The position numbers were made by a program, and so were the translations under genes. This document shows, piece after piece, positions 1,072 through 33,299 of a stretch of 35,097 nt of DNA. The DNA is from Methanobacteriota archaeon (GTDB taxonomy: Archaea; Thermoplasmatota; Poseidoniia; Poseidoniales; Poseidoniaceae). The stretch lies in NCBI GenBank assembly GCA_018701175.1, contig JABIWF010000076.1, positions 1 to 35,097 on the forward strand, in the 5' to 3' direction. The notes under the pieces are model-generated. The model saw only the letters and a list, made by a program, of their open reading frames with translations. It was not told where the DNA came from and made no database searches. The first letter of the stretch is position 1. Each line of letters begins with the position of its first letter.

Positions 1072-2847
1072 TCATTCGAAGTAAAGAGAATAATCCTCGC
1101 TCCAATCGATGGACGTCGCCTTGAACCAATCTTTGGCAGAATCATACGCTTCTTGCCCCGGATTCTTTCTTTTACGCTTGGCCCGCTGGGAAATGAGTTT
1201 CCAAGCTGTTTTCTCACCTATGCCTGGAATCGCTTCTAACTGCTTTTGAGAGACTTTTTCAGCCTGAAGACCAGTTTCAACTCCAGTAATCGAACGTGCA
1301 CCGTGTCCAGTGACGATGACGGAGGATTGAGTTTCGAGTGGAATGTGGTATTCTACACCAATAAGGATCGGGTAAGCACCGATTTGCCTGCCAAAAGTGA
1401 TGCCCGCTTTACCTCTACACGACTCCGCAGTATGCGCTTCATCAAGGTGTGCAGTGAGCCGTGTTCGTCCGTCATGCGTCTCCCAATGCACATCGGATAA
1501 TTCTTCACCCATAGGGAATAATTCTTCGAGGAGAGGGCCATCAATGGTATCTCGTACATTGTTTTTGAACGTATTGAACGCTTTTTGCGGGATGTCTTGG
1601 AATCCTTCGCCTTCTACCTGCCGAATGTTGATTCGGCGCAATAACAGGCCTTCACGGCGGATTTCGTGCAGTAAATCAAGATTCATTTGGTAACTTGCTT
1701 CAGTTTCACCGTTTAAGCCAGCAATGAAATTGAGTCCAGGTAGTAACTTTGGCAAACCTCTTTCTCCGCGAACTGAGCCGTGTTTGTTGATGAGTCGTAT
1801 CGCTGATTTGAGTTGTGCAGGGTCGCAGTTGAGCCAATTTGCCTCATGAACTGAAGGGTCTGCCGATTCAAGGCCAAACGAGAGTACAGCGCCATCAGAC
1901 AGCGTTTCCACGAGAGTTTTGGTAATCGCTTCTGATTCTTCGAGGTTTTCAGCGATGATGGAAGGATTCCCATTATCGGTGTGAAGGATTCCTAATCGGT
2001 CATCATCGCGTAAACCGTGCAACAACTTGGCAATCGGCTCAGGGTTTGGGACTGGATATTCCATTTCTTTAACCCCGTCTGCCATATAGGTGTAGGTATC
2101 GGTCATGCCTCCAAGTCGAACATGTTCGACGCCAACATCGTGCGCTCGACGTACTTCTTCGATGATATCCTCAGGTGTCCGCCATATCGGTATGCCCTTT
2201 TTTGGTTCGATACAGAATTTACATCCACGTTTGTAACGTACGCATCCTTGGTACACTTCCACTTCGTAAGTGAGTGGTCCTTTCTTATCTTCAGTGCCGA
2301 GGTCTGGGTGCGTGGTGACTGCTTTACTTGCTGCTCCAGCCTGGGCCCAATTTGTCCATTGCTCGGCATTTCTTCGGGTATGCTTCCATTCCCCGGTGTT
2401 GAGATACGTGTGCAGTGTAGCATCCGTGTCCTGAACGGCCAAAAACAGATTCTTCCGGAGCGGTGTCCAACCTTGTTGCCTCCAACCACGGATCGCCCAT
2501 CCTCCGAAGAGTGCAGGAATCCCATGCGGGAGATCGCGAATCAGGTTACGGGTTTCCTTTAGCGACAATGGAGTTCCACGAAGGTAACGGCCAGGGACCA
2601 CAGCGCCAGCAATGCAAGCAAACCCTTCAAGAGTTGAAAGTCGGTTTCTTGCCCAATCTTCGCCGTTGCTGCGAATTAGGTCTCTCCACTGATCGATGGT
2701 GAGATAATCGTAGTCGATATTTGCTTCCTCGAGCACTCCGCAAAGGTAGCGAATGTGGAACCCGACGTAGGGTGGAACTCCAAATGCAGCAGGTTCGTCT
2801 TCATAGCCGTCAAGAATCAACCATTTGGGTGAATGTTGTTCGACCAT
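1072..2847 (-). CDS. Radical SAM enzyme with C-terminal helix-hairpin-helix (COG1031-like)
   Basis: The 591-residue protein begins LILDGYEDEPAAFGVPPY near its N-terminus. It carries a cysteine cluster GCVRYKRGCKFCIEP at residues 201-215 (C202, C209, C212), which should bind the [4Fe-4S] cluster that cleaves S-adenosylmethionine. The spacing is C-x6-C-x2-C rather than the common C-x3-C-x2-C. A helix-hairpin-helix (PGIGEKTAWKL, about 541-551) and a basic segment at the C-terminus suggest nucleic-acid contact. This architecture matches the archaeal COG1031 family, whose reaction is not established; an RNA modification role is only inferred. The frame also opens from a TTG at 2877 that overlaps the stop of the upstream gene. 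The ATG at 2847 was preferred because it leaves the usual short N-terminus before LILDGY. It lies downstream of the Csl4-RRM gene in the same direction. Confidence 0.85.
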   Translation of the reverse strand: MVEQHSPKWLILDGYEDEPAAFGVPPYVGFHIRYLCGVLEEANIDYDYLTIDQWRDLIRSNGEDWARNRLSTLEGFACIAGAVVPGRYLRGTPLSLKETRNLIRDLPHGIPALFGGWAIRGWRQQGWTPLRKNLFLAVQDTDATLHTYLNTGEWKHTRRNAEQWTNWAQAGAASKAVTTHPDLGTEDKKGPLTYEVEVYQGCVRYKRGCKFCIEPKKGIPIWRTPEDIIEEVRRAHDVGVEHVRLGGMTDTYTYMADGVKEMEYPVPNPEPIAKLLHGLRDDDRLGILHTDNGNPSIIAENLEESEAITKTLVETLSDGAVLSFGLESADPSVHEANWLNCDPAQLKSAIRLINKHGSVRGERGLPKLLPGLNFIAGLNGETEASYQMNLDLLHEIRREGLLLRRINIRQVEGEGFQDIPQKAFNTFKNNVRDTIDGPLLEELFPMGEELSDVHWETHDGRTRLTAHLDEAHTAESCRGKAGITFGRQIGAYPILIGVEYHIPLETQSSVIVTGHGARSITGVETGLQAEKVSQKQLEAIPGIGEKTAWKLISQRAKRKRKNPGQEAYDSAKDWFKATSIDWSEDYSLYFE

Positions 2848-2873
2848 GATGGCTAACCTCGAGTCGGTTGCCT

Positions 2874-4367
2874 TCAATCCTTCTTCTCGCGTCGACGTCG
2901 AGGGCGCTTCTTTGAATCCTCTTCCTCTTCACGAAGTGCTTGAATTTCACGGGATGATTTCCCGCCAGAGTTGTCAGAACCACGCTTATCACGGTTGTTG
3001 CCGCCTTTCTTCCCGCCTTGCGACACATCAACCTTGATGCGTCGACCGAGCAATTCGGAACCGTTGAGTTTGGAGACGATTTCTTCGCCCTTGTCCATTT
3101 CCTTGATGAAGGCAAAAGCAAATCCCTTTGGTTTTCCGTCACCACTGGTAGCAACAACAAGTCCGTTGACGGTTGCAATGCCATCGAACATGGCTCGTAT
3201 GTTCTCTTCAGTTGCCTTGAATGGGAGATTTCCAATGTAGAGTTTGAGCCCTTCTGGGTCCTTGCGCTTTTCTCGCTTGCCCTTCTTGTCATCGCTGTCT
3301 GCATCTCGCACACCGATTTTTCGGCCGTTGATTTTGTGGCCGTTGAGTTTTTCAGCTGCAGCATCTGCTTGAGATTTTTCAGAGTAAGTGACGAAACCGA
3401 ATCCTCGGTTGACACCGTTATCATCGGTCAGTACAATGCAGTCGGTCATGTCGCCGTGCTCAGCGAACAGAGCACGAAGTTCTTCAGTTCCAACTTCACG
3501 TGGCAAGCCACCGACAAACAAACGGCAACCTGGTGCGTTTCGTGGCCGACGTTCTTTGCCACCGCTTTCGCCTTCGAATCGGAAGTAAGTGCGTTCACGG
3601 CCGTCTTCACGGACATCTGCAGCGATGAAGGTTGCTCGACCAGCAGGTCCCTTGCCAAACATGGCTTCTGCAGCAGCGCCCCAGCGCTTGCCGGAGTTGT
3701 TGAGTGAACTTGCTCCTTGCTCTACCTCAGCCCAGCCTGCGCCGTAGTTGTCTGCAAGGGCTCGATAAGATTGGTAATTGCATGTTGGGCATCGGACGTT
3801 CCAGTCGCCGTCAAGATCAGCAGACAATACGTCACCGCATGATGGGCAGATTGCATGGAGTACGCCGCAGTCATCACGGTCTCGGAAACTGATGCGTAGA
3901 ACAGGAGATGTTTCTTTGACTTCTGCTCGACAGACATCTCGTCGTCGTACAGCGTCAGAAGTTTGGTGCATGTATCGGTCGACAATCCCCGTAACGTGGA
4001 ATTGACCGTAGAGGTGTTCAGGCAGGACGCTACCAGGCTTGCCTTCGATGCAAATAACTTGAGCCTCTCCGTTTTTTTCGTTGAGTTTGACAATTTCACA
4101 AAGCACGGTATCACCGACTTCTGGTGTGACAATTTCCTTCTGAGCGGCAACGATTGCGATGCCATCTTGAATTGAAAACATGCCAGTTGCGGTTGCTAAA
4201 ATCGATCCATTGACTTCAATGGTTCCATCTCCAGCCTCGCATTCTGATGAGGTTGATACTTGTGTTCCGGGGGTGACGAGGCTCGGCGTCATATTTTTCA
4301 TTCCTGTAGCAAACATGGCCTGATGTAGGTCGCATGCTGTTTCGCTTGATTGAACCGGTGTGTTCAC
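2874..4367 (-). CDS. Exosome Csl4-like protein fused to two RRM domains
   Basis: The 497-residue protein has the Csl4 layout at its N-terminus: an N-terminal domain with GDGTIEVNGSILATATG (47-63), an S1-type OB fold (about 85-160), and a zinc ribbon with C174/C177 and C193/C196. In archaea Csl4 caps the RNA exosome and recruits substrate. After a linker (about 205-280) come two RRM domains. RRM1 (281-356) has RNP2 LFVGGL and RNP1 RGFGFVTY; RRM2 (374-447) has RNP2 LYIGNL and RNP1 KGFAFAFI. The C-terminus (450-497) is Gly/Lys/Arg-rich and basic. The frame is uninterrupted, so the fusion is not an assembly join of two reading frames. The start is uncertain: GTG at 4367 is the longest, but ATG at 4301 or 4292 fits the usual Csl4 N-terminus better. 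It lies 35 bases after the METTL5-like gene. Confidence 0.9.
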   Translation of the reverse strand: MNTPVQSSETACDLHQAMFATGMKNMTPSLVTPGTQVSTSSECEAGDGTIEVNGSILATATGMFSIQDGIAIVAAQKEIVTPEVGDTVLCEIVKLNEKNGEAQVICIEGKPGSVLPEHLYGQFHVTGIVDRYMHQTSDAVRRRDVCRAEVKETSPVLRISFRDRDDCGVLHAICPSCGDVLSADLDGDWNVRCPTCNYQSYRALADNYGAGWAEVEQGASSLNNSGKRWGAAAEAMFGKGPAGRATFIAADVREDGRERTYFRFEGESGGKERRPRNAPGCRLFVGGLPREVGTEELRALFAEHGDMTDCIVLTDDNGVNRGFGFVTYSEKSQADAAAEKLNGHKINGRKIGVRDADSDDKKGKREKRKDPEGLKLYIGNLPFKATEENIRAMFDGIATVNGLVVATSGDGKPKGFAFAFIKEMDKGEEIVSKLNGSELLGRRIKVDVSQGGKKGGNNRDKRGSDNSGGKSSREIQALREEEEDSKKRPRRRREKKD

Positions 4368-4402: not shown

Positions 4403-5056
4403 TCAATCCTCTTCCTCGAGTAACTTCGCATCTCCGGGAAGATGAAAGCGCCAACACAGCACAGTGGTAGCAGCCTTGCGCTTTGTGTGGTGCTGGTAGG
4501 TTGGGGGAAGGCGGAAATTCGTTTCCAGCATTGCTTCAGATTCGTAACCGTACTCCCTGCCGAGTGCTTGCAAATGTTTGGATTTTGAACTGTGCAGTAC
4601 ATGGACGACCGGCGCACCGAGCGAAAAGGCGTATTCAAGCAAAGGCCGGTCAGCCTTTGGAGTTTGCACACCCCACGGAGGATTCATCACGACAATGTCC
4701 GGGATTTGGGCGGGTTGTGCAGTTTCTTTGGTCACGTGTTCGTGCACCACTTCGCCGCTACCGATGCAACGTTGGTTCACTTCCTCGGTATTCATTCGTG
4801 CCACTTCCACGACTTCGAGGTCTGCCTCCATCATGGTGACTTGTTCTGCCCCGAGGAGTAAACAACCGCAGCCAAGGACTCCGTTGCCGGCTCCAAGGTC
4901 AAGGACTCTTTTCCCTTCAAGTCCGTCAACCTGGTCGATTCCAAGAAGCCAATACGAAGCGAGGTCACCCTCGGTTGCGTACTGTTCGAGTTCCACGGAT
5001 GTACAAGGGTGCGGTGATAATTTGGACAATTCAATGGCCAAATGCTTGGGACGCAT
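4403..5056 (-). CDS. METTL5-like N6-adenine RNA methyltransferase (COG2263)
   Basis: This 217-residue class I SAM-dependent methyltransferase has LEQYATEGDLASYWL (23-37), the SAM-binding motif I VLDLGAGNGVLG (51-62), an acidic motif II (MEAD, 76-79) and the catalytic NPPWG (125-129), typical of N6-adenine methylation. The order LEQY, VLDLG, NPPWGxQ, DRPLLEYA matches the archaeal/eukaryotic METTL5 family, which methylates an adenine of small-subunit rRNA in eukaryotes. The target here is inferred. The ATG at 5056 is only 4 bases after the zinc-ribbon gene, suggesting co-transcription. The gene precedes the Csl4-RRM protein, giving a small RNA-processing neighbourhood. Confidence 0.85.
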   Translation of the reverse strand: MRPKHLAIELSKLSPHPCTSVELEQYATEGDLASYWLLGIDQVDGLEGKRVLDLGAGNGVLGCGCLLLGAEQVTMMEADLEVVEVARMNTEEVNQRCIGSGEVVHEHVTKETAQPAQIPDIVVMNPPWGVQTPKADRPLLEYAFSLGAPVVHVLHSSKSKHLQALGREYGYESEAMLETNFRLPPTYQHHTKRKAATTVLCWRFHLPGDAKLLEEED

Positions 5057-8385: not shown

Positions 8386-10716
8386 TCATTCTTCAGCCAA
8401 CGGCTTTGTTTCCAGCCAATGCAGCCGTATTCCACTTGAGTCCAACACCACATCACTCCTACCAGATAGCCCCAGTGGATTCAACCACAGTTGCGCTGAC
8501 GCAGATTTTGGCCATACAATCTCAAGTGTACCCGATGATACGTTGATGGAATCTTCAAAGCAAACGGAATGCCATCCGGCCGTAAAAGATCTCGAGATTG
8601 ATGTGGTATTTGTTGCATCGGCTAACAGAAGGTTTACTTCATCGAGATTTCCAATCGCTTCAAGCGCCAAACACGCTTTTCCGTTGGCAGAATCAGTGGA
8701 ACTGAATGCTAAGCCAGCGTTACTCCCTTCAGCAATAAATGCACGATCAGAGCCAAGTTTGAGAGGGTCTCTAAACCGATGCGCCGACCAGGGGTCCGGT
8801 CGCAGTTCACATCCATCGGCGCATGTCGATTCAGTAAAGGTTGCAAACGTTGAAACATCTGATGTGCCAGTGGGGTCTAGTGCCCACAACATGCTTCCTC
8901 GCACATCAACAATCGAACTCCAATACGGTGACTGCGATAAAAACCAACCAACTGTTCCAAGTGGTGAAGACAGTGCATGAGTGATGTTGAGTTTCTGAAG
9001 CGCCGAAATTGAATCCATGTAAACGGCTGTGGTTGCGTTGGCTTGGATGCTTGTCTCAATTTGTATTAAGCCAAGCGTTGGAATGCTGGTGGTCGCAATG
9101 TTTGGTGGTGCAGCGTGAACGTATCCCCAGTGCGAGTTTTCGGTGTAAACAATACTTCCATCCGGCAACAATGCCATTTCGTCATACAGTGCTGAATCGC
9201 CTGCTGCGTAGGCTTTGAGTTCTTGATGCTCGGAAACCTGAAAGAGAATTATGTTGCCAAACAAGACTCCCATCAGGAGCGCTACCGAAAGAGTGGCTGT
9301 GAGGTATCGATGCATGTGTGGGTCCCACCCTACGGTGAGCAGGTTGTGATTCTCATCGATTGAGGTGAGACACGTTGTTTGACTCCACCATAACGCAACC
9401 AGAGCCGCTAGTGGGATGTGGAATGCGTGCAGGCCCATTGAATACAGCGTGTATGACAGCAACGAAAGCACAGGGATTTGTTCAAGCCCCTCAATCAGAT
9501 GGATCGTAGTCAACAACCATAATCCAGTAAACCAGACTGCCAGTAAGCGTCCCTCAATCGTTTGACGTAACTTCCAAGCGCTGCATAATCCGAGGACAAG
9601 GAGAATGCCGTTGTACATGAGCATTGGACGCCCACCTTGCCACCCATACTCGGCAAAAACTGCAGCATCGAGCATACGTGGGGCTAGAATCACGAGGGCA
9701 ATCGCAGCAGCGATGGTAAGCAGGATTGAACTGGTGAGGAGGAGTTTTTTGATGTTCTCACCATGCTTCTCGCTCAAACTCAAACCAATCAAGAGATGCG
9801 CTAGCATGAGCATGCCGAGGTATGTGGCGCCCGTTGGGTGAATCATCAGCACACAGAAAAACGCCATGACAAATCCAGTTGTGTGATGCTTTCCTCGAGT
9901 TGAACTCGGCCTTAGTAGCACCAATAATCCAACGACCAGTCCAAGTTGACTTGCGACGGTTGGATAGCCTGAATCAAAGGTTTTTGCAAAAAGTCCTGCC
10001 CCTAATGCCATCGCTAATATTCCATTTGCGCCGGCGCCGTGGCGGTCCATTGCTCCACCGATGCCGAGAAGAAGAACAGCGAGCGTGTAGTGCCCGAGCG
10101 TGAACACTGCTTCACTTGGATCGAGATTCAAGGATTCCTGCATCCAAGCAGCGAGTGAAGGAAATCCGGGAGGATAGGTCCAAAATCCAGTGTTGGTGCC
10201 GGAGAGTGAGAGGTCACCGACCGAAGAAATTTGATGAGTGAGTGTCGAGAATCCAATCCAGTCAACGCCAAAGGGCGAATCCATCAGCAGAGGGAGCGTG
10301 AAGCAACTGAGGAGGACTGTAGAGGCGAATGCCAGCATCCATGGATTCCGCTGATTTTGCAACCATCGTTGTGCGGCTACTTCGTCACTTATTGCTTCTT
10401 CAGGAGTACCGTAAACCTCTCCGTGCATGGCCCGTTCCAACTTTTGCCAAGAAGTGAGAGACTGAGCAACTCTTTTTCTTGAACGTAGTTGGGAAATTGC
10501 AAGCGTGTTCAACAGTAAAAAAAGAGCACACATCAACCCCCAAGTCCACAACCCAGACAGCAGGACAATGCCAGATAACCCATACACAAGCAGTAGGCCA
10601 AGAGCTGGTGCGAGCATAAATTTCCGAAGTTTGTCCGCACTCGCATCGAGTACCCTGCACAGGGCGTATCCGGGTAGGAAGGTTACCGACAGCAGAAGGG
10701 CCGCTGTCAGGAACAT
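8386..10716 (-). CDS. GT-C-like polytopic membrane protein with large exported C-terminal domain
   Basis: The 776-residue protein has about a dozen hydrophobic segments over residues 1-500, followed by a soluble region of about 270 residues without further membrane spans. Between the early spans is an extracytoplasmic loop with D152 (VDWIGFSTLTHQ) and H161, then YPPGFPSLAA (181-190). Loops of this sort, an acidic residue in the first loop followed by a YPPG segment, are common in GT-C fold enzymes that take lipid-linked sugars. The exact donor and acceptor cannot be read. It lacks the WWDYG motif of archaeal oligosaccharyltransferase AglB, so it is not AglB. Its neighbour is a dolichol-phosphate-sugar type GT2. 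The ATG at 10716 lies 47 bases from the divergent M23 gene. Confidence 0.7.
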   Translation of the reverse strand: MFLTAALLLSVTFLPGYALCRVLDASADKLRKFMLAPALGLLLVYGLSGIVLLSGLWTWGLMCALFLLLNTLAISQLRSRKRVAQSLTSWQKLERAMHGEVYGTPEEAISDEVAAQRWLQNQRNPWMLAFASTVLLSCFTLPLLMDSPFGVDWIGFSTLTHQISSVGDLSLSGTNTGFWTYPPGFPSLAAWMQESLNLDPSEAVFTLGHYTLAVLLLGIGGAMDRHGAGANGILAMALGAGLFAKTFDSGYPTVASQLGLVVGLLVLLRPSSTRGKHHTTGFVMAFFCVLMIHPTGATYLGMLMLAHLLIGLSLSEKHGENIKKLLLTSSILLTIAAAIALVILAPRMLDAAVFAEYGWQGGRPMLMYNGILLVLGLCSAWKLRQTIEGRLLAVWFTGLWLLTTIHLIEGLEQIPVLSLLSYTLYSMGLHAFHIPLAALVALWWSQTTCLTSIDENHNLLTVGWDPHMHRYLTATLSVALLMGVLFGNIILFQVSEHQELKAYAAGDSALYDEMALLPDGSIVYTENSHWGYVHAAPPNIATTSIPTLGLIQIETSIQANATTAVYMDSISALQKLNITHALSSPLGTVGWFLSQSPYWSSIVDVRGSMLWALDPTGTSDVSTFATFTESTCADGCELRPDPWSAHRFRDPLKLGSDRAFIAEGSNAGLAFSSTDSANGKACLALEAIGNLDEVNLLLADATNTTSISRSFTAGWHSVCFEDSINVSSGTLEIVWPKSASAQLWLNPLGLSGRSDVVLDSSGIRLHWLETKPLAEE

Positions 10717-16974: not shown

Positions 16975-17005
16975 TGGACAGTTGAAGGATAGGCTCAAAG
17001 GAGTG

Positions 17006-20000
17006 ATGCTGGTGCACAATACGGAAGTGAGTCAATTGCAACAGTCATTGTCATGGAAATCGCGACGAATTTCTTTCTTCTTGGTTCTCGTTTTTTTGAT
17101 TGCAGACCTTGGTGTTTTGGCGAACGACTCGGAACAAGAGGTAATTGTAGAATTATCCCCTGAATATGCAGAGCCTATCCTTGTTGAAGGATTGCCGCCT
17201 TTGATGTGCGGTGAAGAAATCTGCCTTCGTCCGGTCCGAGACATTGATCGTAACGGGCGCATCTCTGCAGAAGCAGACCAATGGTGGCAATCCTATGGCC
17301 CCGATTTGGACTGGAACGGAATGGACGACCGGCTTCAGAGGGTTCTCGCTGGCTCTGAGTCCGTTTCTCCAACGGCTATTATTGGGCCAGATGGGCGTAA
17401 AACGGTCGCTGTTGTCGTCGATTACGCTTGGCGAGCAAACGATGCCGAAATCGAGACGTTGCGCTCAGTTCTTGATGCTCATGGCTGGGTTGGCGAAGAC
17501 GGCGGCGCATGGTTTCAACAACTCGAAGATATCGATTCTGTTGCCGTCGATAAGGTGCCGGTGTCGGCGCTGATGGACCTCTATTCACTCCACGGAGTTG
17601 TCGTTATTGAAATGCAAAACGTCATGATTCCATCCAACGATGTTGCTGCTAAAGCCTCTCGTGCACGACCGTCAGATGTCTATTCAGCAACCGCCTACGA
17701 GCGCGATTACATCGGCGATGGCGTTGTTGTTGCCGTTCTTGACACCGGTGTCGACAATGAGCACGAATCACTCAATGATTTTGACGACGAAAACGATGCA
17801 CCGGATGAAGACCCACTCTCCTACAATGACCATAAATGGGTGGCAGGATACGATGCTACTTCCTCAGCTTCAAGCATCGATGGAACACAAGATCCTGATG
17901 ATGGAAATGGGCATGGAACACACGTTGCAGGTTCAGCAATCGGTACAGGTGACAGCAGCCGTGTTCATATGGGCACTGCTCCGGGTTCGTACCTTGTTGA
18001 TATCAAGGTTCTAACCGATTCGGGAGGCACCAATTCACAAGCTTCACTTAACGGAATTCAATGGCTCATCAACAACCAAAATACAGATTGGGGCCATAAT
18101 TCTTCAACTCGAGGTATTCAAGTCGCTTCGATGTCGTTCGGCTCTGCCTCAACTCCATTGAATCCCGGTGACCAAGGTGACAACGGCAGCGGTTCCGAGG
18201 CTCGTCTCGTGAACGACGCAGTCAACGCATCCATCGTCTGCGTGATTGCCATGGGTAACGACGGTTCGAACCGTGTACCTTCTCCCGCAAGTGCTGACAG
18301 AGCAATTTCTGTTGGTGCTGCTACAGACCGTGGCACAATCAACCGCACCAATGACAATGTCGCAGATTATTCGAACACCGGACCTCGCATTGACGATAAC
18401 GATGACGATGAGTGGGACGAACTCAAGCCTGACATCACTTCTTTCGGTTCGGGCATCATGTCAGCAACTGCACAAACCGGCTCCTCATTCCCAGGGCAAC
18501 CTGCGAGACCTTTGGCAGGTTCAGATTACGACGAGAAAGACGGAACGAGTATGGCAACTCCAATCGCTTCTGGAATTATAGCGCTCATGCTACAAGCAGA
18601 CCGCTCTCTTGAACCACAGGAGATTAAAGACATCTTGCGCAATTCATCTGAGGCACGAGGTACGGCATCTGAACCAAGCATCTCCGATAGGTGGAACGAC
18701 GAATGGGGCTTCGGACTTATCGATGCTTCATGCGCAATTGACACTGTTCTCAACAAGGCATGTACACCGCTTGAAGGCGGCGGAGGCCTCATCGACCCAC
18801 CACCATCTGGGAATGGGACCAGTTTCGACGTGGACATGTCGAAGCCTAACAACGGTACGTGGTGGATTGAAGGTGATTTTGCCCGCATTGCTGGTACAAC
18901 AGATGAAAATCAAGACGGAGACGAATATACAAAGGTACAGGTTCGTATTGAACAATACCTTGAATCGGGAACCGTCCGTGAACTCCAAAATTGGGTGGAT
19001 GCAGGTGGCGATGTCTCCTCATGGTATCTCGATGTTTCAGTGAAAGACAATTGGGTTCGTCAAGACGAAGATTATGCTTTAGTTCTTGCACGGGCCATCA
19101 ACGATGAAGGAGAAGAGTCCGCCCTCGATGCACGCTGGATTAACATTGCTCGAATGGCGGTTACCATTGCTGGTCCTGCAGTCGGTACCGCACTCCAAGG
19201 ATCTGTGGATTTCAGCGGAACGGTCGAAGGTGTAGAACACGACATACTGGAATACAAAGTTGATAACGGCGATTGGCTGGTTGGCGAACAGCTCGATGAG
19301 ATGGAAATTGGCACACAAGACTGGTCTTTTTCTTGGAACTCAAACTCCGTAGATGACGGTTCACACCGCATCAACTTCCGAATGGTCAATGAAAGCGGAG
19401 TCGCGACCGATGAAATACGTCGAACGTACACCGTGGACAACCAGCCTGCTGCCCCCGATTTCCAGTTCCAAGGTAGCGTCGAAATCATGGACCAAGACCT
19501 TCCGGTTTACTCCGCAGTTGCCGGAACTGTACTCGAAGTCGATTTCAGTGTAATCAATGTGGGCGATCTTGACGCAAACGATGTCTTTGTTCAACTCAGT
19601 GCAGTGGGCAGTCAATCGGAGACATACCCTCGAGAGACACGAATTTCCACGCTTGCTGAAGGCGAAAGCCAACAGGTTACCCTGTATTGGTGGGCCACAC
19701 AAGCAGGCACCCAGGACGTTACGATAACCATCGACCCAAACAATCAGCAAGGGGATCCAAACCCTTCCAACAACGTTTACACTTTTTCGTTCGAAGTCGA
19801 AGAACGTCCTGTAGAGGCAATGCTGAGGTTCTTGCCCGGTGCAGTCACAACCGACCCTCGAATCCCTCTTCCGGATACCCCATTCAACATCGATGTGCGA
19901 ATCGATAACCTTGGTCAAACTGAAGCAACACAACTGAATGTTCGCTTGGAACGCTGGACTTCGAACGGTTGGGACCAAATTGCTACCGACCAGATCTTGT

Positions 20001-21970
20001 TCATTGTCGGGTCTGAAACCGACTCCGGAAACGCTTACGTCGAATTCTCAGAAGTGGGCCATTCGATTGGAGGTGTGAAGTATCGCGTTGTGATTGAGGG
20101 CAACGGTGTAGAACCCGAGTTTAGCGATCATCGATTTACGGTCGTCGTTGACGATGCAAGTTTAGGTTCAATCGTCGGCATCTCCCTTTCACAAGGTGAA
20201 GTGCCGATTGATTTCATTGGAATGGCCGATGGTGGGCTGCTGTTTACAACCCGTGATGGAGAACTTCATGTTCGTTCAATTACCGATAAAATGATCCTGC
20301 AAGCAGATGTGCTTCTCGAAGAAAAATGGGGCGGTGAATTAGCCACAACGCTCCGTGAAGATGGCCTTGTCCACGCTGTATGGAATCGAAAAACCATCAG
20401 CCCTGACGGCTATACCCTTACCGACTTATCGTTGACATCGCTGACGCGACTTGGAGAAACGACTCCAATCGTTCATCAAATGCCGGCAATCAAACTCTCC
20501 GAAGGCTCGTACTGGGGGCTTGCACTCACTGAATACGATGGAGATATGATACTCGCTGGATACCACCGAGATATTTCCACCGGTGGTTCTTGGCAAGATA
20601 TCACATCGATTTTCACAATTGTGTCCTCAAACCCAGACAGCACTTCGTCATGGAACGCTCCGAACATTGTTCTCTCCGATATTGATATCCGACCGTCTCA
20701 AGGTGACAATTTAGCCATTGGTATGGGTGAGGAAAACATGCACATTTTGTATCAAGAAATCAGAGACGATGTAACTGGACTCGATCGAGTCGGTTTGATG
20801 TATACTCACGGCGACCCGACTTTGACATCTTGGGGATTCCAATCCTCAGTGGGCGACGAGGCTCAAAATGCTCGGATGGTTGTTCTCACCAACGGTAGCG
20901 ATGATGTCTTGGTAGCAGCATGGATTGAAGGTCGTGGCAAGAGTGCTTCCGTGGCTCATGTGGTAACCGATAATTCATGGTCAGATGACGCAGCTCGCAT
21001 CAACGCTCCAGGCGTTCAAAATATCGAATTGAATCCGACTTCTGACGGTATTCAGATCTACTATGATGAGATTAACATCTACGGTCCAGTAACGCGCTAT
21101 GGCTTACTTTCTGATTCATCGAAGGGGCAATCGGTTGCTCTGTCAAACATTCTGGCAGAAGGCTTCCTGCAAGACCAAGCGGGTCTCGAGTTCGATGGTA
21201 TTTTGCTGCTTTCAAGTGCCAGTGGTTCACTTAAGATGCGTACTGTTGCTGACATCAGCAACAACAACAACGACGAAGAAGAATCTCCGGGTTTACTCGA
21301 CACGATTCTTGCACCTCTCCCAGGTTCTAAAGACACTAAAATGTTGATTCTTGCGGGTACTTCGACACTGTTCTTCATCTTCCTTCTCGTCATCGTCGTA
21401 TCAGTACGCTCTTCTCGAAAGGAAGAGGAAGAATTACTCGCCGTGATAGAATCAAGCGACGAGGTAATTACAGATTCACTTGAGTTGATGATTTCTCCAG
21501 TTGGTGACCAAGGACCTCTGTTGGCCATTGACACCGAAACGGAAGATCTCGTAGTGGAAATGCCAACTCCCGGAGTGGAAGTTGAAGATGAAATCAGTTT
21601 ATCGGCCTCACTCGAAGCAAAGAGCGATGCTGGCGAAGGAAACTCTCGCCTTGAGCGCCGTATGAGGCGTAAGCAACAGCGAGAAGTTTCAGAGATGGTT
21701 CAAAAAATCCCTCTGCCGCCTTTGCCAAACGCTTTGCCTCTACCAGCAGAACAACCAGCGGTGATTATTGCCGAACTCGAACCTGTTTTGCCAGCTCTAC
21801 CTGCATTGGATGGCTCGCTTCCACCGCTGCCGGGCCTTTTGCCGCTGCCGATGATTGCACCCCCTCAACGAGATGTAACATGCCAGGAATGTCAAGCAAA
21901 GTTCACGGTGAAGGACATGACATTGTCTCGAGTTAAATGTCCGATTTGTTCGGCAAACGTTCAATTCTGA
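17006..21970 (+). CDS. Giant membrane-anchored subtilisin-like (S8) protease with Ig/CARDB domains and zinc-ribbon tail
   Basis: This 1654-residue protein has an N-terminal signal or anchor segment (KSRRISFFLVLVFLIADLGV). A propeptide-like region precedes an S8 domain with D246 (VAVLDTGVD), H303 (GNGHGTHVAG) and S515 (GTSMATP), so the triad is intact. Ig-like and two CARDB-like modules follow (each with a VIN/RIDN..G.T.A motif), then a long beta-rich region. A membrane span near residues 1445-1468 (ILAGTSTLFFIFLLVIVVSV) is followed by a cytoplasmic tail that is acidic, then basic, then Pro-rich. It ends in a zinc ribbon C1626/C1629 and C1645/C1648. Probable role: cell-surface protein degradation for feeding on marine protein. 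Start: ATG at 17006 preceded by AAAGGAG; TTG at 16982 and GTG at 17012 are alternatives. Confidence 0.9.
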   Translation: MLVHNTEVSQLQQSLSWKSRRISFFLVLVFLIADLGVLANDSEQEVIVELSPEYAEPILVEGLPPLMCGEEICLRPVRDIDRNGRISAEADQWWQSYGPDLDWNGMDDRLQRVLAGSESVSPTAIIGPDGRKTVAVVVDYAWRANDAEIETLRSVLDAHGWVGEDGGAWFQQLEDIDSVAVDKVPVSALMDLYSLHGVVVIEMQNVMIPSNDVAAKASRARPSDVYSATAYERDYIGDGVVVAVLDTGVDNEHESLNDFDDENDAPDEDPLSYNDHKWVAGYDATSSASSIDGTQDPDDGNGHGTHVAGSAIGTGDSSRVHMGTAPGSYLVDIKVLTDSGGTNSQASLNGIQWLINNQNTDWGHNSSTRGIQVASMSFGSASTPLNPGDQGDNGSGSEARLVNDAVNASIVCVIAMGNDGSNRVPSPASADRAISVGAATDRGTINRTNDNVADYSNTGPRIDDNDDDEWDELKPDITSFGSGIMSATAQTGSSFPGQPARPLAGSDYDEKDGTSMATPIASGIIALMLQADRSLEPQEIKDILRNSSEARGTASEPSISDRWNDEWGFGLIDASCAIDTVLNKACTPLEGGGGLIDPPPSGNGTSFDVDMSKPNNGTWWIEGDFARIAGTTDENQDGDEYTKVQVRIEQYLESGTVRELQNWVDAGGDVSSWYLDVSVKDNWVRQDEDYALVLARAINDEGEESALDARWINIARMAVTIAGPAVGTALQGSVDFSGTVEGVEHDILEYKVDNGDWLVGEQLDEMEIGTQDWSFSWNSNSVDDGSHRINFRMVNESGVATDEIRRTYTVDNQPAAPDFQFQGSVEIMDQDLPVYSAVAGTVLEVDFSVINVGDLDANDVFVQLSAVGSQSETYPRETRISTLAEGESQQVTLYWWATQAGTQDVTITIDPNNQQGDPNPSNNVYTFSFEVEERPVEAMLRFLPGAVTTDPRIPLPDTPFNIDVRIDNLGQTEATQLNVRLERWTSNGWDQIATDQILFIVGSETDSGNAYVEFSEVGHSIGGVKYRVVIEGNGVEPEFSDHRFTVVVDDASLGSIVGISLSQGEVPIDFIGMADGGLLFTTRDGELHVRSITDKMILQADVLLEEKWGGELATTLREDGLVHAVWNRKTISPDGYTLTDLSLTSLTRLGETTPIVHQMPAIKLSEGSYWGLALTEYDGDMILAGYHRDISTGGSWQDITSIFTIVSSNPDSTSSWNAPNIVLSDIDIRPSQGDNLAIGMGEENMHILYQEIRDDVTGLDRVGLMYTHGDPTLTSWGFQSSVGDEAQNARMVVLTNGSDDVLVAAWIEGRGKSASVAHVVTDNSWSDDAARINAPGVQNIELNPTSDGIQIYYDEINIYGPVTRYGLLSDSSKGQSVALSNILAEGFLQDQAGLEFDGILLLSSASGSLKMRTVADISNNNNDEEESPGLLDTILAPLPGSKDTKMLILAGTSTLFFIFLLVIVVSVRSSRKEEEELLAVIESSDEVITDSLELMISPVGDQGPLLAIDTETEDLVVEMPTPGVEVEDEISLSASLEAKSDAGEGNSRLERRMRRKQQREVSEMVQKIPLPPLPNALPLPAEQPAVIIAELEPVLPALPALDGSLPPLPGLLPLPMIAPPQRDVTCQECQAKFTVKDMTLSRVKCPICSANVQF

Positions 21971-25829: not shown

Positions 25830-28800
25830 TCACAGGTCGAGATCATCAAGGAATCCGGACATATCTGTGCTTGCAGAAGTGCTTGGGGTATTGGTAGTTG
25901 TCGGCTGAGCAGATGCCGGCTGGCCCATTTGTGCAGACAGATACTGTTCACCATAATGTTGCCATTGTTCCATTGTCCAGCCTTGCGGTAATCCACTGGA
26001 AGGTAGCGGTGGACCTGCTTGTGGAGCAGGTGCCGCAACGGGTTCTACGGGTTGTTGAGCGACTGGTTCTGAAAGAGCAGACAGTGCTGCTAGAGCGTCG
26101 TTGGCTTGTTGCGTTGGTGCTGGGTTGTAGGCTGCATAAGGGTCGGCTGCAGGCTGCGCATAGGGGTCGGCTGCAGGCTGCGCATAAGGATCGGCTGTCG
26201 GCTGTGCCGCATACATGTCGGTTTGTGCAGGTGCTTCAGCAGCGTAACTCGGCTGTTGGGTGGCATAGTCCAGTTGTGTTGCAAGACCCGGCGGCTCCAT
26301 TGTCGGTACGGCAGTAAATGCGGAATACTTGTCTTCAACTGCTTCGGGTTTCGAACGGGTGATGAGCAAGAATGCTGCCAACACCACGACGATGAACGCA
26401 AGGATACCGATGATTGCAGTGGGTACAGAACCAATCGCTTCACTGACGGTTTCAATGAATCCGTCTGCAGGTTGTTCTGTAACCGTGAGCGTAATGCTCG
26501 AAGATGATGTTTCTCCGTCGTCATCGGTGACGGTTAGTGTGAATGTCCACTGGCCTGGCTCAAGATTTGTTAGCGTGTATTCCATACCACTGTAATCAAT
26601 TTCACCGGTCATTTGGCCATCAAGGTCACTGTCGATTAAATCACTGTCCCAGTCGTATTGGAGAATGAGTTTGTCGCTCGTAGTTTCACGAGATGTTACA
26701 CCTGAAAGCGTTATGTTGTCACCCTCCATCAGTTCAAACACGTTTGATGAATTGGTAATCGTGGCAGATGGGGCAAGGTTCTGAACGCTTACATTCACTG
26801 ATGTTAGTGCTTTAGCACCGTCATCATCAGTTACAGTTGCCGTGATTTGGCGTATACCTCGAGTTGCCCAAGACATGGTCATCTCAGTACCTTGCGCTTC
26901 ACAATCATTGACCATGTTTCCGTCGCTATCACTGTCGATCGTCGAATCTGTATCCCAGCAAACTTCCAATGAATCAAGGTCAGATGCTGTATCACTTACC
27001 TCGACACTGAGCGTGAGGTTATCGTCCTCGAATATTGGAATACTTGAGCCTAGCCCAGAGATGGTCGGCGCTACGTTGTTCACTTTGACCATAGCAGTTC
27101 GTACATCCGACCGTGCGCCATCGTTGTCGTAAGCTGATACCTGAATGGTATGCACGCCTGAAAGAGGCCATGAGACGGTTGCTGCGGACGATGGTCCCTT
27201 GGTGACTTCGCTCCAATTCTCAATTAAATCGGATGGAATCCATTCAATGTTTAAATCGTCACGGTCAGAGAGCGTATCGCTTCCAACGATTCTCAGTAGT
27301 GCAACTTCGTCTTCATTGAGCTCCCACATCCCTGCGGAATCTGGCGTCATGTTCATTCCACCGAGGTAGAGTTCGGGGTAGGCCAGTGTTGGGGCAATGT
27401 TGAGGACATCCAGCGTGCTGTTGACGGTTGTTGTCGCTCCGTCATCGTCGGTTGCTACTGCAGTAATGAGGACCGGTCCTTCACCCATTGGAGTGAAGGT
27501 GCATGTTGGCTGAGTCAGCCCTTCTTGGCAGTTGAGATTTGGCCATGAGACCGTAACTTGTTGTCCAGACGGAGAGATGCTGTCAATGTCTCCACTGTCG
27601 GTGGCATCAATGGTGATTTGGGTTTCGACATCGATGCTGTCGAGCATGCTGAGGTTGAGGTACGGTGCACGGTTGAGTACGGTTACGTTCGTTTCAATGA
27701 TGTCTTCGTCGAGTTCTTCATCGAAAACGATGACTTTGACCATCCAATCACCGTCATCGGTCCAGTTCCAGTGAGTAACGCAGTTTGGTGCTTCAAGTAC
27801 TTCAAACAAGCCAGGCTTTGACTCCAATTCAAATCGACAACTAACGCTGCCTCCATCCTCGTCAAAACTTCCAGTTGCATCGAGGGTAATGTTGTCAAAA
27901 GTATATTCGCCTTCATCATAGGTAAACGATGCTGTTGGAGCGCGACCAATGAAAATGTCTACACTCGCATCATTGTTTGACCGATTCGCATCTTCAGTGA
28001 CCAGTTCATCTGGGTCGACTGTAAACGATAGAGATTGGTTTCCAATTGCTGCATCCGCGGGTACAGTCCAGTTTACTGTTATACGTTGTTCGCTGTACGA
28101 AGGAATTGCTGGAACAGATTCACGTATGTTCGTTCCATCTGGTGTGATGACTTCGATTTCTGTCGCAGGAGAACTAAGTACCCCTCGGTTTTGTGCAGGA
28201 ATAGAAAACGTAAGTACATCTCCTGGAAGAGCCGCATATCCAATGGCTTGGTTCAGAGTGACAGTATCAGTTCCTCGTGTACGAGTGACAATTATTGAAT
28301 CGGATTGTGCCACCAAGTCGATGGCAACCACATTGAGGTCGATGACAACGGTAGTTGCGCCGATTATTTTGTTTACAGGATCCCAAACGATGACTCCGTT
28401 GCTTGAATAATCATCGCTGGACGGCGTTGTATCCATTCCACCGGATACATTCAGTGTGTAATTTACAATTCCAGATCCATCAGTCATAGGATTGGCAAGA
28501 AGATTTGTGGATTCATAACGCACTTGCATGTTTGTATTTGCTTGGGGGACAGCTCCAGGAGACGTCTCATAGGTTGCGGTAAGCATTTGCTCAGAATCAG
28601 GTAATGTGGCAAGGAATTGCAAATCAATATCTACGGCCAAATTCCGTGTACCGGGTGTTGAGGTTTCGGTAAAACCGTAGGAATCTGCAGGGTTGTATGT
28701 TTTTAATAACCAATCGATTGTAAATCCAGCAGCATTTGAAACCCTCATCCAAGAGTTGTATCGAACGGCGGGGCAATACCAGTTGTATCCTTGGGCAACG

Positions 28801-29603
28801 CCAGTTTCGTTCCATTCGTTAATTTTGAAAGAATCATCACATCCCGTATATTGAATGTTATTTGTTCCGTCTGTTGGCACACCCTCGGCAGTAATCTGCC
28901 AACTGTTGTTTTCGGGACCGGCAGTGTCAAATGTGTCCGGATCAAAGTAATCCGAAGTGCCGCTCACTGTTGTGGAAGAGAAGAATGGCATGTACCACTG
29001 GTCTCCAACATGGAGTGGGAAATCATACTTTTCTTTTGCCGGAGAGTAACTTGTATCGAAAGTAATGACTCCAATATTCTGGGTGAGGAACCCTGCAGGG
29101 AATCCAAATATACATGGGACGAATTTGACATCGAGGGTGAATTTCGAATTGATGACTCCGAGGTCTCGAACACGAATTAAATCATCTCCACTGTAATCAA
29201 TATCCAGCCTGCCTGTAGTTCCATCAAGACTCGCTCCACATGGGTCGCTGTTTGTTGAACTTGAGAATTGACCTTCAATCAACAACTGATACGCCAAATT
29301 CTGTGTTCCGCTCGTAGAGATGAAGAGCGTATTGTTCAACGTGTAGGTTGTGTCACCAGTAAGTGTGTTCAATGATGCGGAAACATTAGCTTGTGCAATC
29401 AGTTGAGCGACATCAAACTTGGTTTCATAGACCCACTCATCGCCAATACGCCAGGTAGGTACATCGATGTCTTTGTCCCATCCTTCAGCATGCTGAATGT
29501 TTTGCTCTGAAAGTTCCAGAGCTTGGTACGTTACCATGCTGGATAATGGTGCAGCAAACATAAGAAATATCAATCCAATGACTACTGGGCCTATTCGATT
29601 CAT
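25830..29603 (-). CDS. Giant PKD/Ig-domain surface protein, membrane anchored, paralogue A
   Basis: The 1257-residue protein starts MNRIGPVVIGLIFLMFAAPL, a signal peptide. A conserved N-terminal domain (DVPTWRIGDEWVYETKFD) follows. Then come CARDB-like and PKD/Ig-like repeats (for example FDEDGGSVSCRFELES, TAVATDDDGATTTVNS, VTDDDGAKALTSVNV, VTDDDGETSSSSITL). A membrane span near the C-terminus (AIIGILAFIVVVLAAFLLITRSK) leads to a cytoplasmic tail with Tyr/Ala/Gln/Pro repeats (ADPYAQPA), the motif GLPQGWTMEQWQHYGEQYL, and an acidic end (FLDDLDL). The function is structural or adhesive by family; the ligand is unknown. The start at 29603 was chosen over a TTG/GTG-extended frame to 29714 because of the signal peptide and GGAG at 29608-29611. 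It is a tandem paralogue of the next gene upstream. Confidence 0.85.
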   Translation of the reverse strand: MNRIGPVVIGLIFLMFAAPLSSMVTYQALELSEQNIQHAEGWDKDIDVPTWRIGDEWVYETKFDVAQLIAQANVSASLNTLTGDTTYTLNNTLFISTSGTQNLAYQLLIEGQFSSSTNSDPCGASLDGTTGRLDIDYSGDDLIRVRDLGVINSKFTLDVKFVPCIFGFPAGFLTQNIGVITFDTSYSPAKEKYDFPLHVGDQWYMPFFSSTTVSGTSDYFDPDTFDTAGPENNSWQITAEGVPTDGTNNIQYTGCDDSFKINEWNETGVAQGYNWYCPAVRYNSWMRVSNAAGFTIDWLLKTYNPADSYGFTETSTPGTRNLAVDIDLQFLATLPDSEQMLTATYETSPGAVPQANTNMQVRYESTNLLANPMTDGSGIVNYTLNVSGGMDTTPSSDDYSSNGVIVWDPVNKIIGATTVVIDLNVVAIDLVAQSDSIIVTRTRGTDTVTLNQAIGYAALPGDVLTFSIPAQNRGVLSSPATEIEVITPDGTNIRESVPAIPSYSEQRITVNWTVPADAAIGNQSLSFTVDPDELVTEDANRSNNDASVDIFIGRAPTASFTYDEGEYTFDNITLDATGSFDEDGGSVSCRFELESKPGLFEVLEAPNCVTHWNWTDDGDWMVKVIVFDEELDEDIIETNVTVLNRAPYLNLSMLDSIDVETQITIDATDSGDIDSISPSGQQVTVSWPNLNCQEGLTQPTCTFTPMGEGPVLITAVATDDDGATTTVNSTLDVLNIAPTLAYPELYLGGMNMTPDSAGMWELNEDEVALLRIVGSDTLSDRDDLNIEWIPSDLIENWSEVTKGPSSAATVSWPLSGVHTIQVSAYDNDGARSDVRTAMVKVNNVAPTISGLGSSIPIFEDDNLTLSVEVSDTASDLDSLEVCWDTDSTIDSDSDGNMVNDCEAQGTEMTMSWATRGIRQITATVTDDDGAKALTSVNVSVQNLAPSATITNSSNVFELMEGDNITLSGVTSRETTSDKLILQYDWDSDLIDSDLDGQMTGEIDYSGMEYTLTNLEPGQWTFTLTVTDDDGETSSSSITLTVTEQPADGFIETVSEAIGSVPTAIIGILAFIVVVLAAFLLITRSKPEAVEDKYSAFTAVPTMEPPGLATQLDYATQQPSYAAEAPAQTDMYAAQPTADPYAQPAADPYAQPAADPYAAYNPAPTQQANDALAALSALSEPVAQQPVEPVAAPAPQAGPPLPSSGLPQGWTMEQWQHYGEQYLSAQMGQPASAQPTTTNTPSTSASTDMSGFLDDLDL
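26132..26203 (-). repeat. Three tandem 24-bp repeats encoding AQPAADPY-type units
   Basis: Three consecutive 24-base units (26132-26155, 26156-26179, 26180-26203) differ at only a few positions and encode Tyr/Ala/Gln/Pro octapeptides in the cytoplasmic tail of surface protein A. Such in-frame repeats can change copy number by slippage. Confidence 0.75.
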
Positions 29604-29645
29604 AGTACTCCGAAAGCGTTCTCCTACTTGAGAGGCTTGATTCTC

Positions 29646-29660
29646 CGTCCCGTAGGGACG
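29646..29660. repeat. Short hairpin between the tandem surface-protein genes
   Basis: CGTCCC and GGGACG form a 6-base-pair stem around GTA just after the stop of surface protein B (29663-29665). It lies in the 59-base spacer before the start of surface protein A. It may be a weak mRNA processing or 3'-end structure; there is no T-run. Confidence 0.3.
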
Positions 29661-29662
29661 AT

Positions 29663-32600
29663 TCAAGGATGAGATGCTTGCGCATCGAGATATTGTTGCC
29701 CGTAATGTGACCATTGTTCCTCAGTCCATCCTTCGGGCAACCCGGTTTCTGGAATCGGTGGGCCTTGTTCGATGAGCGGCACGGTGACCGGTTCTTCTGT
29801 TACAGGAAGGGTTGGTATTGGATCGTTGATTTGAACAATCTCTTCACCGGTTGAAAACATTTGAGTTGAAGGGGGAGTTGCTGGTCGTCGAGATTGCACT
29901 TGGTCGAGAAGTGCCTGAGTTTCAAATTCACGCTCAGTAGGGTCTTCACCAGTGATTTCTGCATTTTGCCATGGGTCGTCCGATTCCTTCTTTTTCCTTC
30001 GGCGTGTCAAGAGTGCCAAAACGAACAATGCTGAAAGCAGTAAGCCAAGTTGAGCAAGAGGATTTGCGTCTTCGCCGATGAATGCGGCACTCACTTGTTC
30101 AATTGATGTTCGCTCAGGTGGTGCAACAACGATCGACATGGTGGATTGCCCCGGACGTTCCGGGTTTTCATCCCACGCCATGGCTTTCACACGAACAGTG
30201 CCCGAATCTCGGAAGGTATGGGTCACTGAAGAGCCGATCAAATCCGCATCGTTGTCTTTGATGCCGTCGCCGTTGCTGTCAACGGTGATGTCCAAATCCC
30301 ACACAATGGTAAGACCGGCAAGGTCATTCAGTGAGTCGATGGTTCGATCTGCACTCAGATAACATTCTCGGTATGCAACGCATTCTGTATTTTGCAATCT
30401 CACTATTGGAGGCATGTTCAACACTTCGATGACAAGCACTTCGTTGGATTGTGCTCCGTCATCATCTGTAACGTGGTAGATGATGGTATGAGAACCGCTT
30501 CTGTTCCATGCATAGGTCAAGATATCTCCATTGATGTCGCAATCATCGTCAGCGCCTCCGATGTCATCGCTGTCGATACCTGGGTCGATGTCCCAACATT
30601 TGACAAGAGAATCAATGTCGCTTGCTGTATCGGTAGAGTTGCCTTCAATCGTTATTGATTGCCCTTCAGCAATCGGGAGCAAGGACACCAACGGTTGAAT
30701 CACTGGGGGGACATTTCGAATGTTAATCCAGCGTTCCTCAATCGTACTTGCCTCTCCGTCGTTATCACGAACTTCCAAGCGGATTGTGTGGAGTCCCGCA
30801 GTGTTCCATTGCATTGGGAACGTCGAAGTTCGTCCGCTGAACGTATACATCAACGACGGTTGCTCACCGTCAGGCCACCATGTATGCGTCAGAGATTCCA
30901 AATCATCAACTGAATCGAGTGCTTGCCCTTTGACAACAATGGTTTCATCTTCATCTAAGTGCCAGATTTGCTGTTCATCACTTTCGAGGAATTGGTTGTT
31001 TTTCTGCAATGCAATGGAAGTTCCGTGAGGCGCTATGTTTGAGAATAGGATTTCAATAGTGGCAGGTGTTATTGCGTTGTCATCATCAGTGGCTACGGCA
31101 GTAAATGTGTGCAAGCCTTCTGTTGGAGCAGTCGTGGTACAAACTCGAGTGTAATATCCTTCGTTACAAAGGGTATCTGGCCAATGGACATCGACGGCTC
31201 CTGGCCACACATCTTCCGAATCGGAATCGTTGGCAAAGGCATAGAGAGTAATCGGGTGTTCTACTTTCACCTCAGTTCTCGAACTGAGGATTTGAATTTC
31301 TGGATTTCTATTGGCGATGAGGACATTCATGATTGCCGTTTGTTCATCTTTTTCTTCATCAATGACAGTGATTTCTACGGGATAATTACCATCGTCAGTC
31401 CATGTCCAATTGACTGCACAAGAGGCGGAAGGGACGGTTTCCCATGCCCAATTCCTTGAACCATCATCGAAGGGGATTTTGAATTCGCAGAACACAACAC
31501 CTCCGTCCTCGTCAAAACTTTCACCGGCTGAGAGTTGAAGTTCCTCCAATGTCATTGCGTTTGGGTCGCTGAACACTGGCGTTGGCAGTCGGCCAACAAA
31601 CATGGAGATGAATGCTTGGTTATTGGTCGAGTTCGCATCTGCACTGTTGATACCACTCGGGTCAGCTTGCCATGATACTGGTACAATTCCAATCGCTTGC
31701 TCGCTGGGGACCGTCCAAGTGAAATTCACTTTGTGAGCCTCATAGGTGGCCAATGAAGGGAGTGGATGGGATGAGGTCTGTCCATCTGGCTGTGTTATGG
31801 ACATCGTCGTCGGAGTGCTGGAAGAAAGTCCTCTGTTTTGGACAGCGACTTCGATAAGCAATTCATCACCCGGCAATATATTCCAACCTGAAAGGGAATT
31901 CAATTCAGTACGTACTCCACTTCGATTTCGCAGAACTTTGCCAAAATCCTCACTTGCAATCAAATCGAGTCCAATCAGGTATTCATCAAGTGTAATTGTG
32001 GTCGAGCCAACAGCAGTTCCAAACGATGAAGTTGCACTTGGTTGAATTCTTGCGACGATACCGTGGCTCGCCCAATCAAATGCTGACTCTGAAGCATCTT
32101 TTTTATCGCCCATGTCCATTTCGAAAAATGCACTTCCATTGCTTTCAGTAGTTGCTAATTGCACGAGGCCTGTTGCTTCATGATGAACCTCAACAGGTAT
32201 TCCGTTCGTAGTTGAAAAGCAGCTTGCTGATGCATTTACCCAAACGCCGATGGGAGTGTTGAGTGCGGTGATTTCGCTTTCCAGTTCGACCATCAAGCAT
32301 TCGTCCCGAGTTCCAGGATTGTTGTACTGATCAACTCCCGTAGAATCAAGTGGGATGTATTGTTTAAGTCGGAAATCAATGACAAGACCAATATCATCTT
32401 CAGTGTGTAACCAAGCAAAGTTTCTCGCTTCAGGGCAATACCAACGGTAACCACTTGCCTCCCCATCGCTGTTCACTGAGGTCAGTTCGTAGGAAGCGTT
32501 GCATCCGCCGTACCCGATGGTTTGCCCATAGTCGTTACGAGGTCTTCCTGTATTGGTGACTTCCCAAGTAGTGCTGTTGGTGCCGCTTGTCGGAACTGGA

Positions 32601-33244: not shown

Positions 33245-33299
33245 GTTGGGCCACAATCGCAATAGGACATCAAGACTTCTCTCAAACTCTTAGGCGAAC

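Follow-up and report, generated by a model that had tools for sequence, protein, structure and literature searches.

The Csl4 exosome subunit of Poseidoniales is fused to RRM domains, a candidate built-in RNA-capture arm

Introduction

Substrate choice by archaeal exosomes is poorly known. Poseidoniales are an archaeal order abundant in the surface ocean. In eukaryotes, Nrd1 is one of the exosome adaptors that have an RRM. RBM7 of NEXT is another RRM protein linked to the exosome, and in the part of PMC5322736 drawn on here it is described as a separate adaptor reached via other factors, not as a subunit of the cap. The solved archaeal cap protein closest to the one reported here is A. fulgidus Csl4 (AF_0206, PDB 2BA1), which has the same N-terminal domain, S1 domain and zinc ribbon. 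Its solved chain, 179 residues long, stops after the zinc ribbon, whereas our protein continues for 286 further residues that contain two RRMs.

In the Sulfolobus exosome RNA capture is supplied by DnaG. According to the sections of PMC4227792 used here, Rrp4 and DnaG confer a preference for poly(A) there, and DnaG also binds rRNA. These sections also describe an engineered chimera, Csl4-NT, in which the RNA-binding N-terminal domain (NTD) of DnaG is fused to the C-terminus of Csl4 and speeds degradation of A-rich RNA by the exosome. The chimera resembles the protein reported here in having an extra RNA-binding module at the Csl4 C-terminus; it is man-made, uses a different RNA-binding domain and has a measured function, that of the natural fusion being predicted. 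Both parts, Csl4 and the RRM, are already known. For their combination, literature searches (titles and abstracts, few subscription papers covered) gave no description of a Csl4, or of any archaeal exosome, that carries an RRM.

Results

The window, that is the whole stretch of 35,097 nucleotides analysed (contig JABIWF010000076.1, assembly GCA_018701175.1), encodes the fused protein in a single intact minus-strand frame with its stop at 2874 and a conserved start ATG at 4292 (MTPSLVTPG; Table 1). The first-pass annotation had proposed one uninterrupted frame at 3027-4301. The frame was borne out, while its ends had to be moved: the in-frame ATG at 4301 lies three codons before the conserved start, and an end at 3027 cuts off the last 50 residues, a charged Gly/Lys/Arg tail. 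Such a tail was predicted after the RRMs and is present, with 17 K+R versus 10 D+E among 48 residues. The listed TTG start of the downstream radical-SAM gene overlaps the csl4 stop by 4 nt, which makes co-transcription of the two genes probable; the radical-SAM protein shows similarity to MiaB-like and B12-SAM families only below cut-off. Four further large proteins are encoded at 8386-10716, 16982-21970, 25830-29714 and 29663-33262. The first, of 776 aa, matches no family in Pfam (E<=0.01) or NCBIfam (E<=0.001), the second is a CARDB-containing subtilase of 1662 aa, and the remaining two are PKD/CARDB proteins of ~1200-1300 aa.

Table 1. Features of the fused csl4 gene and its neighbours (positions in the window)
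Feature	Position	Strand	Basis or remark
csl4-RRM-RRM gene	2874..4292	-	472 aa + stop; ORF, profile matches, start conserved in relatives
Csl4 core: N-terminal domain, S1/OB fold, zinc ribbon (residues 1-186)	3735..4292	-	NF034126; 2BA1_A
Inter-domain segment (residues 187-254)	3531..3734	-	Conserved; low model confidence
RRM1 (residues 255-332), RNP2 LFVGGL, RNP1 RGFGFVTY	3297..3530	-	PF00076, model, alignment
RRM2 (residues 348-424), RNP2 LYIGNL, RNP1 KGFAFAFI	3021..3251	-	PF00076, model, alignment
Charged Gly/Lys/Arg-rich tail (residues 425-472)	2877..3020	-	Composition; low-confidence predicted helix
MTS-type methyltransferase, NPPWG motif, upstream of csl4	4403..5056	-	
Radical-SAM protein, downstream of csl4, weak C-terminal HhH match	1072..2877	-	Listed TTG start

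In profile searches the window protein scored 103.7 bits with the NCBIfam Csl4 model NF034126 (cut-off 90), and it matched the A. fulgidus chain 2BA1_A with E=2.8e-15 over query residues 5-186 and chain residues 3-177; Pfam ECR1_N alone gave 23 bits, below its 27-bit cut-off. In an alignment of the window protein with 56 relatives, the zinc-ribbon cysteines C149, C152, C168 and C171 are invariant, so that the proposed succession of Csl4 N-terminal domain, S1 fold and four-Cys zinc ribbon is confirmed. The Csl4-RRM-RRM protein of one further locus (L089, genus g17) has lost the second cysteine of each zinc-ribbon pair. Full-length matches to the Csl4 core, contig-cut ones left out, scored about 75-128 bits in Poseidoniales versus 133-204 bits outside the order; by these scores the core has diverged in Poseidoniales.

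Gene order points the same way as the profile. A gene with an NPPW/F motif lies just before csl4 on the same strand at 15 of 22 loci outside the order, namely all five in the other order of the class (L083-L086, L095) and 10 of 17 others (L066-L082; at one more it is on the opposite strand), as well as at six of the eight Poseidoniales loci examined (L087-L094). The counterpart was judged solely by the NPPW/F pattern, and several misses have little upstream DNA. Since this neighbour precedes csl4 outside the order too, it supports orthology, and profile, solved chain and upstream neighbour together argue that the window gene is a genuine Csl4 ortholog.

The RRM model PF00076 matched the window protein in two stretches, with 109 bits, above its gathering score. 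Both domains have the beta-alpha-beta-beta-alpha-beta order and RNP1/RNP2 aromatics. Two RRMs with complete RNP1 and RNP2 motifs had been claimed; the two RRMs stand, and the motif claim is slightly generous for RRM2, which lacks the final RNP1 aromatic and has Ile, Val or Leu at this position in 56 of 57 sequences (undetermined in one). Both RNP1 phenylalanines and the RNP2 aromatic are identical in 57/57 sequences, in both RRMs. An AlphaFold2 model of the single chain has a mean pLDDT of 62 and a pTM of 0.31, which is a modest confidence. The Csl4 half is rich in beta strands in this model and two RRM-like parts can be recognised; the relative placement of domains should not be taken from it. 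It is confident over much of 11-100 and 121-140, poor at 101-120, and of low confidence at 104-116, in parts of the zinc ribbon and at 177-254, 336-345 and 426-472. The best solved matches in Foldseek were tandem RRMs (Sxl, HuD, HuR, hnRNP A1/A2), with 2BA1_A at rank 18.

Between the Csl4 core and RRM1, segment 187-254 is without Pfam or NCBIfam match. Its mean pairwise identity is 79%, versus 70% for the Csl4 core (57 sequences), and its LN..G.RW...AE core is also found in the other family of Poseidoniales; the segment is possibly a binding site for another partner. Median dN/dS was calculated for the window protein and 17 close relatives (18 sequences, 153 pairs). It was lowest in RRM1 (0.028), followed by the segment (0.045), RRM2 (0.058), the Csl4 core (0.070) and the tail (0.193). 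Synonymous sites approach saturation and saturated pairs were excluded, so that the values can be used only relative to each other. They point to strong purifying selection on the RRMs.

The fusion is widespread in the order. Among 59 genomes from the genus and the order, including that of the window, 54 gave a clear Csl4 match. The best matches lie in frames of 301-615 aa, a length well beyond that of a Csl4 without additions; the remaining five (G011, G013, G016, G033, G042) gave only a weaker, Rrp4-type match. A model of the fusion made from 16 rows (A1) matched at most 222 of 243 Poseidoniales genomes, an upper figure that includes some partial or weak matches (e.g. G016, 6e-11), and these represent 22/22 genera. 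Among order genomes at least 90% complete the count was 34/35, and each of the matches listed (E 1e-205 to 3e-150) occupies a single frame of 394 aa or more. The named collection held 253 matching stretches, of which 202 encode a relative; at 78 of the best 80 of these 202, Csl4 and two RRMs share one frame, and the other two (L140, L171) run into a contig end. A search for a frame break between the halves thus found none in independent assemblies. The matching records are titled Poseidoniales, Poseidoniaceae, Poseidonia or unclassified euryarchaea, and include the MG-II chromosome CM001443.1.

Both sampled families of Poseidoniales have the fusion, in two forms. In the window's family the order is Csl4, segment, RRM, RRM and tail. 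In the other family Csl4 and the segment are followed by a treble-clef CxxC-x17-CxxC zinc finger, one RRM and a mostly RG-rich tail. This zinc finger is PF23477/TIGR04272, above cut-off in 3/3 proteins tested, and loci L003, L006 and L016 carry the zinc finger with one RRM. Extra short RRM matches, in frames of 90-111 aa, occur in two order genomes (G161, G255).

The window's genome (1.90 Mb, 149 contigs, about 86% complete) yielded the fused protein as its sole Csl4 and the source of its sole RRMs in profile searches. The first-pass annotation had asked for a separate, ordinary Csl4; none was found, the only other NF034126 match (32.7 bits) being Rrp4, though at this completeness a second copy could conceivably have been missed. 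Rrp4, which was identified by inspection of the sequence (an S1 part, a KH-like part) and by its position, lies directly before Rrp41 and Rrp42 on contig C148 of this genome, and the genes ahead of this row are presumably proteasome-alpha-like and SBDS-like. DnaG, on contig C134, scored 364 bits in all against a cut-off of 300, with its C-terminal part weakly matched (19 bits). As DnaG is retained, the RRM arm would add to it and be no simple replacement.

Other candidates for an ordinary Csl4 were sought in relatives. Matches of the Rrp4 type to NF034126 in order genomes scored 22-45 bits, mostly 28-45, and were read as Rrp4 in the window's genome only. Nine weak extra matches opened in relatives contained no ordinary Csl4. 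Those in G001, G006 and G015 (L179, L180, L183) proved on reading to be another protein, which we take to resemble the tRNA-Ile2 agmatidine synthetase TiaS; that in G026 (L182) is Rrp4, followed by Rrp41; and those in G036, G043, G044 and G048 (L188, L187, L186, L185) are another, S1-containing protein, presumably similar to initiation factor aIF2-alpha. The ninth, L184 (G046:C27), is a second, contig-cut Csl4 fused to a zinc finger and an RRM in a genome whose full copy is L028. It is followed by a radical-SAM gene, like the one downstream of csl4 in the window, and is either a duplicate or the product of a mixed bin. Similar matches of 15-19 bits, outside the nine read, are also present in G040, G045, G046 (contig C12, 36.9 kb), G055 and G057.

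For comparison we used genomes of this phylum, mostly incomplete and metagenome-assembled. An RRM was found in 85 of 243 genomes drawn from it: 63 of 64 in Poseidoniales (the exception is G042), 5/5 in the class's other order and 17 in the rest of the phylum. Outside Poseidoniales the RRMs are all stand-alone, each in a protein with one RRM and no Csl4 encoded by a frame of 81-158 aa. The NCBIfam model of such stand-alone proteins, NF058537 (Rbp_regulator), also matches the window RRMs, over two stretches with 92.3 bits, below its cut-off of 100. The first-pass annotation called RRMs rare in archaea; in this phylum they are not absent outside the order, where 22 of about 179 sampled genomes encode a small stand-alone RRM protein.

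None of the 21 Csl4s read outside Poseidoniales, all from the same phylum, carries an RRM; the search for the same domain order in other proteomes thus found it throughout the order and not in these 21. Of 28 genomes outside the order searched for Csl4, 21 had one over the cut-off, G206 gave a contig-cut piece, G067 reached 35 bits only and five gave none at the limit used. In the other order of the class Csl4 is bare (frames of 185-214 aa, four read) and a separate small RRM protein is encoded as well. Most of the remaining outside Csl4s stop within a few residues of the zinc ribbon. Three from other Thermoplasmatota (L068, L074, L077) have a long RGG-rich tail and no RRM. Like the fusion, they have a C-terminal extension of RNA-binding type, but of low-complexity RGG only, which suggests more than one origin of RNA-binding extensions on Csl4. 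In five genomes outside the order (G078, G094, G099, G110, G132) a stand-alone RRM protein is encoded and the Csl4 model finds nothing at E <= 1e-5.

Discussion

We read the fused protein as the single genuine exosome Csl4 of Poseidoniales, equipped with an RNA-capture arm that was added in the ancestor of the order, and give this reading a probability of about 0.72. The Csl4 N-terminal domain would anchor the protein on the Rrp41/Rrp42 ring, with the S1 domain and zinc ribbon near the pore, and the conserved segment would project the tandem RRMs and the charged tail outwards. RRMs and tail could then take hold of single-stranded RNA and direct its 3' end to the active sites of Rrp41; the arm may raise affinity and bias substrate choice alongside Rrp4 and DnaG, and since the cap has three positions, several RRMs could be present on one particle. 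The protein is read as an RNA-capture arm because it has the design of the engineered chimera, an N-terminal anchor and a C-terminal RNA-binding module, of which it would be a natural version. That the cap has a built-in RNA-binding arm, as first proposed, is well supported: from gene structure, orthology, domain identity, conservation and the presence of the rest of the exosome, we infer assembly on the exosome, RNA binding and recruitment.

How selective the arm may be is a separate matter. In the earlier proposal, a sub-case that overlaps with RNA capture, the arm would be a recruiter of strict sequence specificity that singles out certain mRNAs for decay. The top Foldseek matches are tandem RRMs of the Sxl/HuD/hnRNP A1 type, which bind defined sequences, and this speaks for strict specificity; degenerate sequences and poly(A) are bound by RRM pairs as well, which speaks against it. 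In Sulfolobus, moreover, the poly(A) preference is conferred by Rrp4 and DnaG (PMC4227792, in the sections used), and we regard strict specificity as possible but somewhat doubtful. Equally tentative is the idea of a self-recruiting exosome, whose cap bears a number of sequence-selective RRMs (up to three Csl4 on each ring, with two RRMs apiece in the window's family) and serves as its own mRNA-selection factor, a covalent counterpart of RBM7-type adaptors derived from a captured stand-alone RRM gene of the kind that is still free in the other order of the class.

The RRMs might instead serve mainly for protein docking, in which case they or segment 187-254 would tether the exosome to a partner such as a helicase or the ribosome. 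The RRM of RBM7 is bound by ZCCHC8 in eukaryotic NEXT (PMC5322736, in the part drawn on), and the higher conservation of the segment than of the Csl4 core suggests a binding partner. The RNA-contact aromatics of both RRM sheets are nevertheless identical in all 57 sequences, as expected for RNA binding, and docking as the main role seems unlikely. Still less credible is that the fused protein no longer belongs to the exosome and works on its own as an RNA-binding regulator retaining the Csl4 fold. Divergence of the core and the two zinc-ribbon cysteines lost in one genus (L089) would fit such a regulator, but the protein is the only Csl4 found beside Rrp4, Rrp41, Rrp42 and DnaG in the window's genome, its core is still under strong purifying selection by the dN/dS estimate, and the upstream neighbour is kept at most of the order loci examined. 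The records are mostly metagenome-assembled, and an assembly or frame artefact joining two genes might be suspected; this is refuted by the conservation of the one-frame architecture across loci from many projects, among them the MG-II chromosome. If the RNA-capture reading is correct, the Poseidoniales exosome probably grabs its targets with an arm of its own, beyond separate helper proteins alone, and as this arm is covalently attached to the cap, substrate choice becomes directly testable by domain deletion and CLIP-style assays.

As to origin, the inter-domain segments of the two families align by hhalign with a probability of 90.7 and a score of 36.0, versus a maximum of 15.0 in 20 column shuffles (38 columns aligned; 66 rows from the window's family and 7 from the other, of low diversity). 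Homology of the segment between families favours a single ancestral extension of Csl4. An RRM tree (58 rows from 43 loci, 57 of them different, and 82 columns, with several long end branches and a bootstrap that had not settled) separates stand-alone from fused RRMs (97/89) and places RRM1 in one group (99/96); RRM2 does not form a single group (2 changes), and one of its rows stands beside RRM1 and other-family rows. Together with the bare Csl4 and free RRM protein of the other order, the data suggest a stepwise gain, from these two to the Csl4 fusions of Poseidoniales with either a zinc finger and one RRM or two RRMs. A viral origin of the fusion was considered and rejected, as the fused protein has no PHROGs family and tblastn against phages matched 3 of 50,697 records, with the RRM part only, at 29-36% identity. 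In Microcystis phage MaAM05 (MW495066.1), a hypothetical protein encoded at 176822-177355 is 29% identical to query residues 246-422, the two-RRM stretch.
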